From positions 10,602,001 to 10,666,000 of the forward strand of contig NC_060024.1 in the NCBI RefSeq assembly GCF_021134715.1: a stretch of 64,000 nucleotides of DNA, read 5' to 3'. Source of the DNA: Daphnia pulex. Taxonomy: Eukaryota; Arthropoda; Branchiopoda; Diplostraca; Daphniidae. A model generated the notes under the pieces. The model searched no databases, was not told the origin of the DNA, and was given only the letters and a program-made list of their open reading frames with translations. Both the position numbers and the translations under genes were made by a program. This document shows positions 13,141 to 41,232 of the stretch, one piece after another (positions within the stretch are counted from its first letter, which is position 1; each line of letters begins with the position of its first letter).

Positions 13141-13201
13141 ATAATTATCAGGCAGGTACAATAGCCGCAAGGCTTAGGAGGGGAATGGTGAGAAAAAATC
13201 G

Positions 13202-13238
13202 TATAAAAGGAGAGAGAAAAGGCGAAGCAAAATCAGTC
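13202..13238 (+). promoter_or_regulatory. Core promoter, first copy (interrupted by retroelement)
   Basis: TATAAAA at 13202-13208 is followed 31 bp later by the arthropod initiator TCAGT at 13233-13237. The surrounding block GTATAAAAGGAGAGAGAAAA is repeated exactly at the second promoter (16557 on). The retroelement begins two bases after the initiator. The downstream leader therefore now lies 3 kb away at 16319, and this copy cannot make its original transcript. Confidence 0.7.
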
Positions 13239-16200
13239 GATTTTGCTGTACCGATATTGATGTTTTCAATAACAATGTGACTCACGCCATCATCCTAGCA
13301 GCCAGCAACCACATCCCAGTCGTGCGACAAGGACACCACAAGCCGGGCGTCCCATGGTGGAATGCAGCGTGTGCAGACGCCATCAAAGAAAAAGAAAAGG
13401 CCTGGGTGAGAGCAAACGCATCAAGAAATCCAGACGACTACAAAATATACAGCACTTTACGTAACAAAAGCCGATCGGTGATGCGAAACGCGAAGAAAGA
13501 GCACTGGCGAGCTCACTGTAGCACAATAAACAAGAACACAACGTCCCGTGATCTCTGGGAAAAAACCAACCAAATGCTGGGGCGAAACAACAAAACAAAA
13601 CCGATCTCGGTGCTACTCGACAAAAATGGGACGTGTGTTACGGAGTCATCAGCAAAAGCCAACCTATTTGCAAAGCATTACAAAGCAGTGAGTAGTGACA
13701 CCAACCTATCAGAATCCTTTCTCCAACACCGCCGAATTTCCGAACAGTCCATGGAAGATGGTGAAGCGGACGAGCCGGACGGACGGATAGAAGACGCAGA
13801 AATGAATGCAGATTTCTCAATGCAAGAGCTGACGACCGCCCTAAAAGAAGCAAAAGATACAGCAGTGGGAAGCGACCGAATATCTTTATCAATGCTACGC
13901 CACCTACCGGATACAGCCCTACGTACGCTACTGGCCCTGTACAACGAGTCCTGGAAACAAGGCACGCTACCGAAAGGATGGAAGCACTCGCTGATCATCC
14001 CCTTGTTGAAGCCAAACAAAACTGCATCGAAACCGGAGTCATACCGGCCGATCTCGCTTACCCCGGTGCCATGCAAGGTCCTGGAGAGAATGATTAAAAT
14101 CAGACTCTCTTGGTACCTTGAGAAAAATCTCCTCCTCGCCCCAAATCAAAGTGGTTTCCGACGAAACAGAGGGACTATGGACAATTTAGTGAGGCTCGAA
14201 AATTCGGTCCAATCAGCCCTAAACAACAAAGGATATGTGATGGCAGTCACGCTCGATCTTGAAAAAGCCTACGACATGATCTGGATAAAAGGACTAATTT
14301 ACAAGCTCAAAAAGCTCAGCATAAGAGGCAACATGCTCAAGTGGATTACCTCCTTTTTGGTCGGTCGGACAGCACAAGTATCGTTAAATGGAACTCGGTC
14401 CGAGCTCTTCTCCTGCCTAAACGGCACACCACAAGGAAGTGTCATCAGCCCGTTATTGTTCATCATCCTCATTAACGACATTGCCAAGAAACGCCGCTCC
14501 TGTATGTCGGGAATGTACGCCGATGACATTTTCATCTGGCAGAAGCACCGAAACTTACACTTCCTGAGAAAAAAGGTAGAAAAGGACACACAAGATGTTA
14601 TCGTCGAGCTCAGACTATGGGGCTTCCTAGTTTCGGCAGCAAAAACCGGAGAAATAGTTTTTTCCAAGCGGAATATACCCGAAAATTTGAGCATCACAGT
14701 AGACGGAGCTAGCATCCAAGTGCAAAAGTCAATCAAACTACTGGGCATGACACTCGACAGCAAACTAAATTGGTGCAAACAAATAGACGACGTCGTCAGC
14801 AAGTGCTCAAAAGTTTTAAATTTACTACGCCTCATATCTGGAACGAAATGGGGCGCACACGCAAAGCCCATGCTACAAATCTACCAGGCTCTGATCCGCT
14901 CAAAACTCGACTATGGAGGAGAACTCATCGAGTCCGCCTCTATCACAGCAAAGAAAAAACTGGACAAAATCCAAGCACAAGCGCTGAGAACAGTGGTGGG
15001 TGAGCCAAGGGACACTGCAACAGAGGCCCTGCTACGAGAGACGGGCGAAATGCCCTTGCACCTTAGGAGAAATCTCGCCAGCGTCAAACATTATTTAAGG
15101 TGCTACGAGGTGAAGTCTGACCTGCTAGCAGAAAAAGAAGAGTGGTTCAAAAACGCCGAGCAGTGTTTTCTCTCCAGAGTCGAGTCCGTTACAAACACCT
15201 TGGACCATCATCCTAAATCAGTCGAGAAATTATCCATCAGCAAGCACCCGCCATGGCAGGCTTTGCTTCCGGAAGTCACGACGTACACACCAAACGACCT
15301 GAAATGGCAAAATGTGGTCCACATTTACACAGACGCAGCAAAATCAAAAGACGGGCGATGTGCTGTTGCCTTTGTGGTACCAGAGAAAGTCATCGTTGAG
15401 CAGAAGCGTCTGGTGGACGGTTTGGCGACAGCAAAGTGTGAACTCGTAGCAATACACCTGGCAGTAAAGTGGGCAGAAGCACACGCAACACTGGGGAGCT
15501 TTGTTATCCTAACAGACTCAAAAAAGGCATTGCAAATACTCCACTCAAGTAGTGAAAACAACAGTGTCAAAACAAGCACCGTGGACACCTGGCGAGCACT
15601 CTCCAGAGCTGGCACAACTGTCAGTTTTTCGTGGGTAAAAGGACACAGTGGAATATCCGGCAACGAGCAAGCTGATCGTGCTGCCAAAAATGGGCTGGAG
15701 CTAAAACCTAGCCTCAGCTGCAGAAGAGACACAAACGACATCCGTGAAAACGTTGAAGACCTCCTCCTGAAAAAATGGCAAGGCCTCTGGGACAAGCCGA
15801 AAACGGAATGTGGACTTTTCACCCACAGACACAGTCCAGTCGTGTCAAGAATCGCCTCCCTGTTCGGCCAGTCAAGAAGTGAGCAAGTGTTCTTATCGCA
15901 GATTCGCCTCGACATGCTGCCGCTAAACTATCGTCTGTTCAAACGCAAAAAACATCCGACCGGTCTCTGCTGCAACTGCGACGCCGAAGAAAAAGAAAAT
16001 GTCGAACATGTACTGCTGGCCTGCCCGGCGTACGCAAAGGAGCGAGAAGAAATGGTGTACGTAGTGAGCGAAAACACTCCCACACTGCAAGAGCTGCTAA
16101 ATTTCAACGACGAGGTAACTCTCAAAGCCGTTTTGGACTTCTTTAATGCCATAGGCATCAAAGCCCGACTCGGTTTCTAGCAAGAGAAACCAAAAACCTA

Positions 16201-33978: not shown

Positions 33979-36291
33979 TCAAGGAGTGCGCACAAAAGTT
34001 AGAAATTCTTCGCGTGTCTTGGAGTCATCACGGAATCCGCCCAACATGGCGGAAGTGACTGTCTTGGCGTTGATCTTCTGAACGCCCCGCATGACCATAC
34101 ACATGTGTCTGCAAAATGAGCACAACAATAAAAGGAGATCAATGAATCATCCAATCAATTGTGCTGTAACAAATGATGAATTAACAATGTTCAAATATTT
34201 ACGTTGCTTCTACTACAACGCCGACTCCGTGGGGCGTTACCGCCTCACACACGGCCAGTGCAATTTGTTTGGTCAACCTCTCCTGGACTTGTAAGCGACG
34301 ACTGTAGATCTCCACAATCCTGTTTTGGAAAAAAACAAAAAGAAAAACCTGTTATATTTTATTTCATTCAAAATTAGATATTCAAATGAACAGCAAACCT
34401 GGCCAATTTGGACAGTCCAAGAACTTTGCCGTTGGGCAAATAACCGATGGACACTTTACCGATGAACGGTACCAAATGATGTTCGCACATGGAAAACATT
34501 TCAATGTCTTTGACCACGACCATTTCGTCGTGGTTTTCATCAAAAATGGCATCGTTCAAAACCTCTGTCAAATGAAAATAATAACAAATGACTTGAGAGT
34601 TTAATAAGATAGGCGGCGCCAGCTGTCAAACTGTCACGTAGGCAATGATTATGAACAAAGACATTCAGCCCCACCAAACGAGACAGTGAAATGAAAAAAA
34701 AAAATGAAACTAAGACGAAAAAAAAGTCGGTTAAGTGACACGCGAAACGAAAAGGACAATTCCTAACTAAGCTGCTTTTCATCATCTACCCCCGCACGAT
34801 ATCGATCGCGTGCCAGCAATCTGGTGAAAGTTAGACGCGTCACGTACTGCGAGGACCGTCTATCTAGCGACAAGGAATTTTTCTTGGAGGGGCTCGTGCT
34901 CAACAGGCAGCAATCAGGAAGAATGTTCGCAGAAGTCGAAGAATGGGACCAATCACTCCTACGAGAATAGCAAGTCAAACGAATATCCCTTTAAGGCTGC
35001 TCATCTTAAATCGCGGAGAAAATCATTTCGGGAGGGGGTCTTGTGCCGGACGGGATGGAAACAGTAAACCATAAAACAGCACTAATAAAAAAAAGGGGAT
35101 TGTTGACGGCCGGCTCATCATCCCGGCGTGCGGGAATGAAAGCGCTTTCACAGCCGAGTAGAATGGAAGATGCCTTTAAGCGCTGCCCTAGTAATCAACA
35201 ACGGCCCGTCATTTAATTACAGACATCTAACGGGAAAGAAACGTTTCTTCAGAGATTGGACGAGGAGAAAAGAAAAGAAAGAAATCTGCAAGACAAGATT
35301 GATTGGCATGAATGATGTCTTGGAATAACCTTCTAGCGTCTGTTCATATCCTTTTGTGAAAAAGAGGAAAGCTTTGGCCGCTCTCTCGGGCGTTTTCAGC
35401 AGCCCTTGGCGACATGGGTCCTCCCCAACATCGGACAGCAAGGAACGATACGACTCCACCATTGACGGTAACATGTCCTCGCGATTCAGACGTGGAGAAC
35501 TCCGCAGATTATCGACATCTAATAAAAAAGAAAAGAAATAAACACAAAAATATGTTTTACAATAATCATCATTTTTATTTTGACTTGTAATTGACGTCAT
35601 GTAAAAGTAGGATGCTGGGCCTTGATTAGAAACGTAATAAGATCCAAGTCGTTGAATTCCCCATAGGTCCCGTAATTTAATTTGCTACATCATTCTGGCA
35701 AAAAATTTGGGCTATAGTTATCAGCAGGTTTCTGATGAAATTAGATTTTCCCGGAGAAAGCTGAACCTCGGTTGATTTCATTCGATGTCCCAGAACTGAA
35801 TACATATGTATCGATCGTCAACCGTCTCGAATTTTCATGCTTAGCATATCAGACGAGGAGCAAAGTACATTGTCTTGTCAAAAATGAGACCAGATATTTG
35901 TGGGGTATTCCTTTATATGTGCGATCTAGGTATTACCACGATCAGTTGTCACACACGACACACACACAACTCTTTGAACCTCATTTTCTAAATCTCGACT
36001 AGACATCTCGTGGAGTTCGGACCAAATTTGAAAGCTTTTTATTCGCATTTAAGGCTTTCACATAGATTACGAACCGAGCCCAGGGCGTTTCTACGCGACA
36101 CATTTGAAAGAATGAATGGAAAAAAAACCAGCTTAAACCTCAACAGCATTTGTCTTAAACTCAAAGTAGAGGAAGGAAAGTGGAAACTAACCGATTGTCC
36201 GTAGTCCATTAGTGATGGATTTACACTCGGGATCATCTCCGTTTGTGACAGCCGCTCCAGCTACTGGCTTACTGCCTTTGAAAGCTTCCAT
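33979..36291 (-). CDS. GCH1: GTP cyclohydrolase I
   Basis: Five exons, 36291-36192, 35518-35330, 34564-34399, 34319-34203 and 34108-33979, encode 233 aa. The catalytic domain is almost colinear with animal GCH1. It has [13 protein letters not shown], the zinc ligands Cys123 and His126 in [41 protein letters not shown], and [17 protein letters not shown] with the third zinc ligand Cys194. The spacing of the three ligands equals that of the human enzyme. It converts GTP to 7,8-dihydroneopterin triphosphate, the first and rate-limiting step of tetrahydrobiopterin synthesis, which also feeds pteridine eye pigments and is called Punch in Drosophila. The N-terminus ([15 protein letters not shown]) is short and not conserved. 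The intron after exon 1 is about 670 bp. Alternative first exons, known in flies, are possible but none was identified. Confidence 0.95.
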
Positions 36292-38431
36292 GTTAGTAGT
36301 ATCAGATTGATTGATCTAAAGATTGAAAATTGAAAAAAAAAAAGATTACAAATAAATCTTGCTATTTTAGTATTTTTCCTATTCAAACAGTAAAATGGAA
36401 AAAAAAACGGGAAATTTAACAATGGAAAAGTCATTTTCTTGATTCTGTACCTAATCTTTTTTTGAGAAATAATATATATATATATTTTTAAACTAAATGT
36501 CCAGCTGCCTGTTGGTTCTGCCACTACTGGTGCTGTTGCTCCGGAGACTGTGAAGGGACTGAACCTCTCTTCTGCCGACCTTCTTTATATAGTGCGTAGG
36601 GCGCACGCCGAGAAGCAAAGCAACAATGCTCTCGTTTCATATTCGGGTTACCCAATAACGCCGCAAGCTTATATAACACTCAATCAGTCCGCATTTGATA
36701 GATCTCGTTTAATAGAAAGTGAACAGCAACCAAAAAAATAGGTGATTAAGGTGTAGCTAGAGCAAATTAGATAAAAAGTGTCGAGGAAAGTTTGGCGGGA
36801 AAAAACGCTAAATTTGATGCAAGTGCATTGAACTGCAGTTCCGAATAAGTGAACGCCTCACATATAGGGAACCCTGTCACGTAGACCAAGAACATTGGTA
36901 TCCTCTTCCTTTATCGTCTCGCTGTATGCAATTATCAGATTTTTTTTTTCCCCCGGCCAAAAATGTCAATCGAATATACGAAATATATTGAGGAGCGCGG
37001 GGGCAGCAGCGCGAAAGACTTTAACAAGAATTCAATCGCCCATAGAGAGTGCCTTGATGAATCTTTGATGAAAATGCCATTTATTTTCCACTCCCGACCC
37101 ACCCAAGCCGACGGCGGGACTTGATGCATCTACGGATCGATTGCTTCTGTGAGAGAGTAGATTGGATCAAACGACTCGAACGCTAAAAGCTGATCTCATG
37201 TTCATTCATCGAGCGTTGAGAACTGCAACACGGTGCCCTCAAGGGGCACTGTAGAAGGTTTGAATCGATCTACTTTCCCCCCCTCCCCACCCACGATCCA
37301 TTCAACTTATGGGGCAAGTTGCGCAACAAGATTTATCTATCGGTTGTTTTTACTATCAGCTTGTGAATAATGCCCATCAAAAATTGTTTGCGTATGTGCA
37401 GCACCGACGACACAATATACTGTACAAACTACAAACTGATGATCGATGGCCACACTTTGGACGTTCAATCAATTACATTAACAGATTTCATCAGAATCCA
37501 TCAACATTGATTGGATATGAAATAAGTGACAATAATTTCAAATAGCATTTCAAATTACACAAAGTTCCATAGATCAATCGCTATAAAAAAATTACTAAAA
37601 TTATAAGCCATTAAAGCCAAACTTGTACAAATTTATGGTTAATTGGTTATATAGAGCAAAACTTGTACAAGTTTATGGTTATATAGAGCAAAACTTGTAC
37701 AAGTTTGGCTAATAAAACTATTGCTTGTGATGAAGTGATGCAAATATTGAAATGACACCTGCCTTTTAAATCGAGCAAGGTTGGAGACAGATCTGCTACT
37801 GTTGAAAGACTAGGTCAAGGCTTCCATACCATCCACATGGAAACTGCAAATATTTCAACATAAAATAGATTATAATATTTTTGAAAGTAAAATTGTGCAA
37901 CAAAATCCAAATGGTTGAAACAAATATATATACTTACTTGAGAGATTGTGACGGTTCAATGAACATGTGTGCCAATTTAAACTTGCAATGAAGTGAAATA
38001 AAGATCTTTGAAAGCCAGGAAACTTTAAAAGTTAGCCAACACACAAAAAAGATCTTGTTAATATCCAAACAAAAATATTCTGAGAAATTTGTAGGAAAAA
38101 AAAACTGGTCCAACTTTTAAACTCTCAATTCAGTACAACGAACGCCACTAGTTATTTCTAGGTTGAAACTAATACTACTATTACTGTTCTCGCTTTATTG
38201 AGGGTTCTACATGTAATAAGATAAGATCAAAATCTTTGTTGGATAAGTTATACAAAAGGAAAACCGGATTCAAATCGTGTCTCTTAAAAAAACAACAAAA
38301 CTATCTTGACAAACAAGCAGACGACTTTGCCATTGTCATAGTAACTAGATCACCCATGGCAACCTTTTGTTTGTTTTCTTTTCGAGTAGTTGGCGTCTCT
38401 CTCATATTAGTAGTGGGATGGAAAAAGGGAT
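36292..38431. other. Intergenic region between GCH1 and B9D2
   Basis: Shared upstream region of two divergent genes. It contains a TA microsatellite at about 36471-36486 and an orphan open stretch on + at about 36505-36741 that follows a 3' splice-like ATGTCCAG and reads LPVGSATTGAVAPETVKGLN. The protein is not recognised and may be a fragment. A short inverted repeat lies at 37615-37710. No other gene seen. Confidence 0.4.
37615..37710. repeat. Short element with 15-bp terminal inverted repeats
   Basis: AGCCAAACTTGTACA (37615-37629) and its exact complement TGTACAAGTTTGGCT (37696-37710) bracket 66 bp. Inside, ACTTGTACAAGTTTATGGTT and TATATAGAGCAAA are tandemly repeated, and ACTTGTACAAGT is itself a palindrome. 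Confidence 0.6.
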
Positions 38432-39130
38432 ATGGCAGAACTACATTTAATCGGGCAAATCATCGGCGGAACAGAGTTTTCCGAGAAATCAATTTGCTGT
38501 CGCTGGCAATTATCTTCAGGTAGGTGCCAATCGGCTTTGACGTGCGCTTTCTCTCTTTAAATGTGATCGGGCTCGTTAACGTTTTGAATTGTGAAACATC
38601 ACAGGTGAAAATTGGCGTGTTCTAGAAGGAGCCACTGAAGGCCAGACGCAACTTGACACACCACAAATCGGTTCTGTGAGCAGCTGGAATCATCCACTGG
38701 ACGTGCACTGGGCTACTCGAGGTCTTCAAGGCTGGCCGCAAATTCACCTACAGATTTACCACCTGGACGCTTACTCACGAACCAATTTGATAGGCTACGC
38801 ATCTGCATCCATTCCTACACGTCCCGGCATCCACTACATCGACGCTCCGGCCTGGAGACCTTTAGGTTTTTATTTTTTCTTCGTTCCCTTTGTAAAAAGT
38901 AAAACCTGTCCGTTTAGGAGTTCAGAGTGATCAATTCTGGTTTTTTAAAAGGTACATTCACTGAGGAGTTGATGCGTCATTTCATTGGCGGTGGAGTCGA
39001 GTTGGCTGACGCAGAGCGAATCCAAAACGGAGCCGATCGATCCCGTTTGAGAACTGAAGCCACCGGAAGAGTCTACTTGGAAATAGGATTAGTCTTCCGC
39101 GATTTCAAAAAGTTTGGCATCGAGTACTAG
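38432..39130 (+). CDS. B9D2: B9 domain-containing protein 2 (ciliary transition zone)
   Basis: Three exons, 38432-38519, 38605-38865 and 38952-39130, encode 175 aa, the same length as human B9D2. The protein opens MAELHLIGQIIGGTEFSEKS and contains EGQTQLDTPQIG, HPLDVHWATRGLQGWPQ, PAWRPLG and a C-terminal GRVYLEIGLVFRDFKKFG, all close to the vertebrate protein. The whole length is a B9 (C2-like) domain. B9D2 with B9D1 and MKS1 forms the B9 complex at the ciliary transition zone, and human mutations cause Meckel and Joubert syndromes. Its stop codon is 13 bases before the ATG of the tectonic gene, and the ATG-containing region is in the same exon. No poly(A) signal lies between them. In arthropods motile or sensory cilia are limited to sensory neurons and sperm, so its expected site is sensory neurons. 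Confidence 0.95.
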
Positions 39131-39143
39131 ACGTCAAAAGAAA

Positions 39144-41197
39144 ATGGCCAAGTTACCCACCCTTCAGCTGCTATTCGTGATTCTACAATTTGCCCTGCTC
39201 ATCTCCAAAACTTTCGTCTTTACCCAGTCCGCGACGCAAAGTACAGCAGTCGATCAATCTGAAAGTAATAACCAAACCGACTTGAATCGAAAAAACCAGT
39301 CGAGCACCGATTCGACGACGGCGGCGACACCTATGTCAGAGAATTTAACCAATTCCTTATCAACAGCAGATATAAATCTAGATGAGAATATTTTCCTTTA
39401 TCTCAACACCGAGTCGTCGTCGGAATCCATTCCGACAACGACCGTCGCTCCCGAACAACCGGAATCGGATCCGTTCGATTACAATTTGTTCTTCTGCACT
39501 TGCGATTTGATTGGCGGAGAGTGTGACGTCAACTGCTGCTGCGATCCCGACTGCAGCCAGGACGACCTCCGCCTATTAAATGGCTGCTGGTCGCCGCCCA
39601 GTTCGTATTTCGACCGTTACTATTGCTCGCCGGATCCTGATCGTTACGGACTCGTATGGAACAATACGCCGGAATTCCGCGTCCAGTGGAGTTCTCGCAG
39701 CGGAATGTTCTGCATCGTCACAGACAACGTCCCTAAAAAGAGATTGTTCGAAGATCAAGCTCCCGTTACCGAAGATGAGCTTTTCAAGCACATCTCGCCC
39801 AAATTGTCCGGCAGATGGAACGATCCGGAGAGCCAAGAACCCAGTGCCGGATTGGAACAATGGATTTATCAGCCGTACTACAAGCAAGGGTCGCCCATCT
39901 TCACTCTCCATATCAACGGGATCGTTAGCGTCTTGAGTAATTGCCTGAAATTCATTTTTTTTTAAATTGAATTATTGATGCGAATTTGTTTTAATTGCAA
40001 TTTCATTTGTCAGATTTACCGCGTTCGCTCAATAGCGCTTCGTGCAACACGGCCCAAACGGTCCATTTCCTGGAATCTGATAACGATTACCAGTGCAGTC
40101 TGCCGGGCGAGGATCGATGCCGTCCAACGATTCGTCTTGAAGAATGGCTGGCCAATTTAGCTGTCTTCCGGCTTCCGTCTTATTCGGTCTCTTTCAACGG
40201 GAACGGCAATAGCAGCGCCCGATGGGGCGACATGGACAAGTTGGCGCCGGTGGTTGTTAGAATCTGCGAGAACTCTTATTCCGAATGCAGATCGGATCTT
40301 CCAGCACCTGAGCCCAGCTGTCGGAATTCGCTGACCGCCGTGACGTTGCGCATTACTCACAACGGGACAGAAGGCATCCGCTCCGTTTTGGCGGATCTGC
40401 TCTACACGTCGGCGTCGGCGGGACCGGTCCGTTTCCAAACGATCCATCAATCACTGGCCGAAATGAACCGACCGAGTGGCGGTGCGAATAATCCGCTGAG
40501 AACACGGTCGGGAAACCCTGGCTACCTGACGGGCAAACCCCTTCTGGTTGCCAAATTGAACTCGTCCAGCGGGGAAGGAGCTTACCAAACGCTGGACGTC
40601 TTCCCCGGCACGCCCAAAGCCCGGCTGATCCGATTTGGAGAGGACAGTTACCACGCTTTCCGTATGAATGGGATCAAGATGGACAACCGGACTCAATGGT
40701 GTGCAAACTGGAGCCACTTCGTCCTGGAATCTTTCTGGGGTCCGCAATTGCAACTGCTTCGCTTGGGGGCTTTCGGCAACGTCGAGTTGAACGAGACGGA
40801 AGTCTCCGCCCTGTGGCTGGCCATCAGGATCCAGACGGAAGAGCTGAGCTGCTTCGATTCGCTCATCCACGGCCAACTGGTCGTCGCCTACGCCAAATCG
40901 GGGTCGTACGACCAACCGCAGAACAAACTGCTGGGCGCTGGGTTGACGCTGAGGTCGTCCGGTGCGGATTGCCTCGTCGAATCGTCCAACAGGTGCTCCC
41001 TCCAGCTGAGTCAAACCGTTTCGTTCGTCATGTCGGATTCTCCCACGTTCATGGTTCTGCCTCAACCGCCCCGTTGGAAAATCCAGTTACCTCACGATTT
41101 CTTTTATCCCTTTCTTTTGTCCTCGGCCGGAAGCGTATTATTAAGTCCGTCCATCACGCTTCCTCTATTCCTCGTCGTCGTGTTTTATGGCCGTTAG
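39144..41197 (+). CDS. TCTN: Tectonic family protein (ciliary transition zone)
   Basis: Two exons, 39144-39936 and 40014-41197, encode 658 aa. The start MAKLPTLQLLFVILQFAL gives a clear signal peptide. An in-frame ATG at 39114 lies inside the B9D2 coding region and would add ten polar residues before the signal peptide. A Ser/Thr/Asn-rich stretch follows, then the cysteine cluster CTCDLIGGECDVNCCCDPDC (residues about 118-137) and a long tectonic domain with NPGYLTGKPLLVAKL. The last 25 residues are hydrophobic and may be a membrane anchor or GPI signal. Tectonics work in the MKS/B9 complex of the transition zone, the same complex as B9D2. Whether it is TCTN1, 2 or 3 is not assigned; arthropods often have one. 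The gene is probably co-transcribed with B9D2, since no splice acceptor occurs in the 13-base gap. Confidence 0.9.
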
Positions 41198-41226
41198 ATG
41201 GCGTTCACTGTCTCCTATTTTGGAAA

Positions 41227-41232
41227 AATAAA
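41227..41232 (+). terminator. Poly(A) signal of the B9D2-tectonic unit
   Basis: AATAAA 30 bases after the tectonic stop. It is the first canonical signal downstream of B9D2 on this strand in the region examined and would end a joint transcript. Confidence 0.6.

Follow-up and report, generated by a model that had tools for sequence, protein, structure and literature searches.

Few animal mRNAs encode two large proteins with linked functions, and conserved cases in which both belong to one complex are rarer still. Dicistronic genes as such are already known. In the fly, 159 dicistronic pairs have been annotated and the spacers of polycistronic-only loci range from -34 to 319 nt, according to the excerpted text of the survey (PMC4528330). 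For the fly genes stoned and snapin, the excerpt of a later article cites a study in which the second ORF is attenuated when cistron 1 carries in-frame AUGs (PMC3372440). Bicistronic loci of green algae are described, in the sections of the report at hand, as having few AUGs before ORF2 and as behaving like leaky scanning in vivo (PMC11892635).

The described locus closest to ours is fly CG9227. In the excerpted text of Laurencon et al. 2007, it is named "tectonic", counted as one of three fly B9-domain genes and paired with human NP_085055 and worm Y38F2AL.2; one X-box was counted as conserved 119/146 nt before the ATG in two fly species, where it sits among six and four loose matches (PMC2375033). 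A reporter for CG9227 is stated to be silent in flies lacking dRfx. The accession NP_085055.2 is given as human B9D2 in the part consulted of Barker et al. 2014 (PMC4092220), while the corresponding part of Pratt et al. 2016 treats fly B9D2 and Tectonic as separate proteins (PMC5087661). As far as these excerpts go, the two identities under one identifier suggest a dicistronic locus, for which they would be expected, the alternative being a simple misnaming; because CG9227 carries both identities, the pair may be ancient in Pancrustacea. Presumably FlyBase later split CG9227 into the consecutive genes CG42730 and CG42731, listed as neighbouring dicistronic genes. In the open-licence literature no paper was found on CG42730/CG42731 and, among the matches listed, none that combined B9d2 with dicistronic or bicistronic, by which we do not claim absence from print; none of the literature matches listed dealt with an X-box in Daphnia pulex.

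In Daphnia pulex, B9D2 and tectonic lie in tandem within the window that we analysed, a 64-kb stretch of DNA taken as a whole, and judging from their sequence they probably form one RFX-driven dicistronic transcription unit. The pair itself is real. A single splice solution was found for each gene within the ranges tried, giving B9D2 at 38432-39130 (three exons, 175 aa) and tectonic at 39144-41197 (two exons, 658 aa; Table 1). The spliced B9D2 protein matched the Pfam profile B9-C2 at full length (residues 4-163 against profile positions 1-165 of 166, E 3.3e-52), and the spliced tectonic protein matched DUF1619_N (PF25752, E 3.2e-12) and TCTN_DUF1619 (PF07773, E 2e-06). All three matches exceeded the curated cut-offs, which bears out the gene pair proposed in the initial annotation. 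The protein is assigned to B9D2 over B9D1 or MKS1 by its presumed resemblance to the human sequence. Since the N-terminus of tectonic from 39144 has, by eye, a signal-peptide-like hydrophobic stretch, a missing upstream coding exon of this gene is unlikely. Fusion of the two proteins by read-through of the B9D2 stop codon was considered and rejected, as the frames differ and a ribosome reading through would add 43 residues in a frame other than that of tectonic until it met a stop.

Table 1. Coordinates of features at the B9D2-tectonic locus (positions within the 64-kb window)
Feature	Position	Strand	Basis or remark
Candidate X-box 1 (putative RFX site), ATTGTCATAGTAAC	38332..38345	+	100 nt 5' of B9D2 ATG; match to RTTRYCN2RGYAAC
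Candidate X-box 2 (putative RFX site), ATCACCCATGGCAAC	38349..38363	+	83 nt 5' of B9D2 ATG; match to RTNRCCN1-3RGYAAC
Possible uORF, 10 codons (MEKGIWQNYI)	38418..38450	+	in the mRNA only if transcription starts 5' of 38418
B9D2 exon 1	38432..38519	+	splice solution; Pfam B9-C2 on whole protein
B9D2 exon 2	38605..38865	+	splice solution; B9 genome search; Pfam
B9D2 exon 3, stop TAG 39128-39130	38952..39130	+	splice solution; B9 genome search; Pfam
Sole ATG within spliced B9D2 past its start	38972..38974	+	codon 124 of the B9D2 frame; T at -3 and C at +4, a weak context
Intercistronic spacer, 13 nt, ACGTCAAAAGAAA	39131..39143	+	splice solution
Tectonic exon 1, ATG 39144	39144..39936	+	splice solution; Pfam
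Tectonic exon 2, stop 41195-41197	40014..41197	+	splice solution; Pfam
Earliest AATAAA 3' of the B9D2 start; putative poly(A) signal for both genes	41227..41232	+	signal search

Searches of the genome (133.2 Mb, 13 contigs) located at least three B9 places, B9D2 on contig C8 and the others on C1 and C7, and at least one tectonic. A scan of the genome with PF07773 returned no match, which we regard as a miss because the spliced tectonic protein passes the cut-off of this very profile. It is unlikely, as a judgement rather than a computed figure, that an MKS-module gene came to be the next downstream neighbour of B9D2 by chance. No solved structure matched tectonic, and a tblastn search with B9D2 of the prokaryote (46 pattern matches) and virus (5) contigs, two collections to which arthropods do not belong, found no relative. 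The window also holds a 1000-codon open frame at 13178-16177 on the plus strand that encodes reverse transcriptase and RNase H domains, probably a non-LTR retrotransposon, and, upstream of B9D2 at 35220-35684 on the minus strand, a frame encoding the N-terminal portion of a GTP cyclohydrolase I domain.

At the junction, the layout is that of a fly-type dicistronic gene, with two complete, non-overlapping ORFs in tandem and a short spacer of 13 nt. The initial annotation had put the B9D2 stop 13 bases before the tectonic ATG, with which our coordinates agree, and its statement that the first AATAAA comes after tectonic was likewise correct, the stretch 38432-41197 containing none. Our search covered AATAAA and 12 variant signals. 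Between the cistrons there is thus no AATAAA, as in fly-type dicistronic genes, while variant hexamers are present from the B9D2 start to the spacer (TTTAAA at 38556 and 38944, AGTAAA at 38898, AAGAAA at 39138 in the spacer itself). A second in-frame ATG for tectonic at 39114, overlapping B9D2, had also been reported; the letters there are TTG. From the upstream stop at 39090-39092 to 39144 the tectonic frame contains no ATG, so that an ATG-started tectonic cannot overlap B9D2. A scan of 38200-39200 for promoters and terminators of bacterial type found nothing and is not meaningful in a eukaryote.

Over 38432-39144 the spliced message contains three ATGs only, namely the B9D2 start, the in-frame ATG at 38972 and the tectonic start. 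Not one out-of-frame ATG occurs in the 528-nt coding sequence of B9D2, against 3.5 expected when its own synonymous codons were shuffled (P 0.0056) and 4.4 expected when codons were resampled from a usage table pooled over nine genes (P 0.0023). When all 64 triplets were ranked by depletion in B9D2, ATG came first (P 0.0027) and GGG second (0.008). Seven other ciliary genes showed no depletion of ATG (P at least 0.20); these controls comprised 15 stop-free partial coding stretches, 102-813 nt summed per gene, from which HMM-matched stretches with stop codons were left out and part of one B9D1 stretch was trimmed. Controls and tectonic together had 45 ATGs per 5,019 nt, which gives a Poisson chance of 0.009 for a count of zero in B9D2. 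The depletion rests on a single gene, and as tectonic is itself mildly ATG-poor (13 ATGs against 19.6 expected from pooled usage, P 0.027, or 17.1 from its own codons, P 0.094), part of the signal may be regional.

An AUG-poor first cistron of this kind, here with one in-frame ATG left, is what characterizes fly-type dicistronic genes of the scanning class, and a B9D2 without out-of-frame ATGs provides a layout that lets scanning ribosomes arrive at the second cistron. We favour leaky scanning because of this AUG-poor frame and the precedents of stoned/snapin and the green algae; that B9D2 and tectonic share a message and tectonic is reached in this way is a reading to which we would give a little less than an even chance. 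The tectonic AUG has a good context (A at -3, G at +4). Leaky scanning is most efficient past weak AUG contexts, and caution is called for by the context of the B9D2 AUG, which is not weak (G at -3, G at +4), by the remaining in-frame AUG at 38972 and by the possible uORF, which spans the B9D2 start in a different frame. Were this uORF part of the mRNA, it could bring a share of the ribosomes beyond the B9D2 AUG and on to tectonic.

On the same dicistronic mRNA, tectonic might instead be translated by termination and reinitiation, from an IRES, or by reinitiation after the uORF, an alternative to leaky scanning that we consider unlikely. The stop-to-start distance of 13 nt would be suitable for reinitiation, and the uORF, through its overlap with the B9D2 start and its end 522 nt (spliced; arithmetic from the coordinates) before the tectonic AUG, would offer a second route. 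Reinitiation after an ORF of 175 codons is, however, inefficient, and it does not require an AUG-free first cistron. A structured IRES just 5' of tectonic was rejected, as the 155 nt ending at the AUG fold no better than shuffled sequences (z -0.71).

Upstream of B9D2, two X-box consensus matches were found, as is typical of ciliary genes under RFX control, and both are putative RFX sites. Candidate 1 is the sole match to RTTRYCN2RGYAAC on either strand of the window, a pattern that was devised after this site had been seen; candidate 2 is one of three matches in 64 kb to the published RTNRCCN1-3RGYAAC, and 98 sites in the window fit the loosest consensus. Across the 133.2 Mb of the genome, RTTRYCATRGYAAC was matched 175 times and its reversed control 25 times, an approximately sevenfold excess in a tally that counts palindromic matches on both strands. 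At about 1.3 matches per Mb, a given 300 bp would contain one with odds of about 4 in 10,000, a value flattered by the after-the-fact pattern. The A-initial subset, to which the B9D2 sites belong in kind, numbered 49 matches against 12 in the control, eight of the 49 being one identical word, perhaps a repeat. The genome-wide enrichment of RTTRYCATRGYAAC also supplies a list of candidate RFX-driven genes in Daphnia pulex.

Seven ciliary loci of the same genome served as controls, namely the two other B9 genes, TMEM231, BBS5, BBS1, IFT57 and IFT20. In six of the seven, one or more of three restricted X-box consensuses matched 5' of or at the N-terminal exon, and the other two B9 genes have such a match 66 and 119 nt ahead of their presumed ATGs; BBS5 had one loose match in the scanned range, and a half-site, ATGGCAAC, was noticed there by eye. 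Scores were also taken from a matrix of 28 published fly X-boxes, which we picked from a table with omission of degenerate and A-initial sites: five controls scored 13.3-22.3 bits, TMEM231 9.6 and BBS5 9.5. The best B9D2 site, candidate 2, reached 8.5 bits, a value equalled or bettered in 18 of 213 window bins, and the omission of A-initial sites pushes down the scores of sites like those at B9D2. The X-boxes of B9D2 therefore fit the consensus well and reach moderate scores with the fly matrix. As a separate observation, the B9 gene on C7 (11926876-11927226) has an ATG 66 nt past a good X-box, and the splice solutions that begin there give a protein of only 181-195 aa. It presumably resembles MKS1, human MKS1 is far longer, and the C7 gene is perhaps a B9-only form.

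Tectonic has no good X-box near its start: the 300 nt 5' of its ATG scored -2.2 bits, which 204 of 213 window bins matched or exceeded, and between the two ATGs even the loosest consensus gave just two matches, both of them weak and on the minus strand (near 38475 and 38939). This bears on a promoter of tectonic located in an intron or the last exon of B9D2 and producing a monocistronic mRNA, with B9D2 ending at a non-canonical poly(A) site in tectonic or reading through. Such a promoter is compatible with the variant poly(A) signals in tectonic (TATAAA at 39371, ATTAAA at 39575, TTTAAA at 39961, AATGAA at 40462) and with an X-box-like site of 6.7 bits by the fly matrix at 38496 in B9D2 exon 1, 3' of the B9D2 ATG. 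It also agrees with the excerpted survey of 159 fly dicistronic pairs, in which monocistronic forms exist for both genes in 45 pairs and for one gene in 69 (PMC4528330). Most of the other ciliary genes tested have the good X-box that tectonic lacks at its start, however, and the ATG depletion of B9D2 would be left unexplained, so that we rate the internal promoter as improbable. The initial annotation had offered the dicistronic mRNA and the internal promoter as two readings; the X-boxes, the ATG depletion and CG9227 favour the former and lower the standing of the latter.

It had further been stated that the gap contains no splice acceptor. This holds insofar as there is no pyrimidine tract, although one AG does occur at 39139-39140, with a pyrimidine fraction of 0.40; by the same crude measure the three acceptors in use at the locus have 0.47-0.67 and the 17 AGs between 38952 and 39143 have 0.33-0.60. 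A weak acceptor inside the 13-nt spacer is unlikely, and by this measure the pyrimidine-tract acceptor that precedes the second ORF in nematode-type SL operons is absent at tectonic. Separate processing of a tectonic mRNA from one primary transcript, through alternative splicing to an acceptor near the B9D2 stop or SL trans-splicing near 39141, is very improbable: AGs at 39111-39112 and 39129-39130 (both 0.53) stand beside the one in the spacer, and the excerpted survey includes fly loci in which an alternative splice breaks up one of the cistrons (PMC4528330), but the spacer AG has no pyrimidine tract, none of the literature matches listed has a title on SL trans-splicing in Daphnia (a weak point), and the ATG depletion is not predicted.

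For the dicistronic unit with leaky scanning, the following course of events can be proposed. RFX, if it binds the X-boxes at 38332-38363, would direct a transcription start shortly 5' of 38432, and a single primary transcript would span B9D2 and tectonic. After cis-splicing of two introns in B9D2 and one in tectonic, and polyadenylation after 41227, B9D2 would be translated from 38432. A fraction of the ribosomes would bypass its AUG, scan a frame nearly free of AUGs save for one weak in-frame codon, and initiate at the well-placed tectonic AUG 13 nt past the B9D2 stop, by leaky scanning with or without help from the uORF. Both subunits of the MKS transition-zone module would in this way come from one message. 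More tentatively still, and with somewhat less than even confidence, we propose that a dicistronic B9D2-tectonic gene has been kept without trans-splicing ever since flies and branchiopods last shared an ancestor, with selection excluding AUG from B9D2 so that ribosomes scanning a single RFX-controlled message would supply both ciliary-gate subunits.

The value of the locus lies in the probable deep conservation, in the two subunits of one complex and in a testable AUG-poor first cistron, since the AUG-poor B9D2 frame makes leaky scanning directly accessible to experiment. If the pair is dicistronic as in flies, it would offer a natural setting for testing whether the supply of ciliary-gate subunits is set by their translation from one message. 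In annotated crustacean and insect genomes, B9D2 and tectonic may appear as a fusion, or one of the two may be missing.

Among the known systems, the CG9227 locus is the most similar, sharing, as far as the excerpted sources describe it, the B9D2 and tectonic identities and an X-box before the ATG (119/146 nt in the flies), and having an RFX-dependent reporter. Fly Mocs2/CG42503, which encodes the MOCS2 subunits, is likewise conserved as a dicistronic unit, its two products being subunits of one complex, in the excerpted survey (PMC4528330), but the complex is a different one, and the fly case is annotated as dicistronic whereas B9D2-tectonic is a predicted case. In stoned and snapin two cistrons also share one mRNA and in-frame AUGs of cistron 1 attenuate cistron 2, as cited in the excerpt of PMC3372440. 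The proteins there are unrelated, the dicistronic mRNA has been shown in the fly and is proposed for B9D2-tectonic, and the emphasis of that study is on in-frame AUGs, of which B9D2 retains one. The green-algal loci resemble ours in the few potential starts before ORF2 and in the natural 14-nt spacer used in a reporter, by the sections at hand (PMC11892635); they belong to another kingdom, and ORF1 contexts tend to be weak there, in contrast to that of B9D2.
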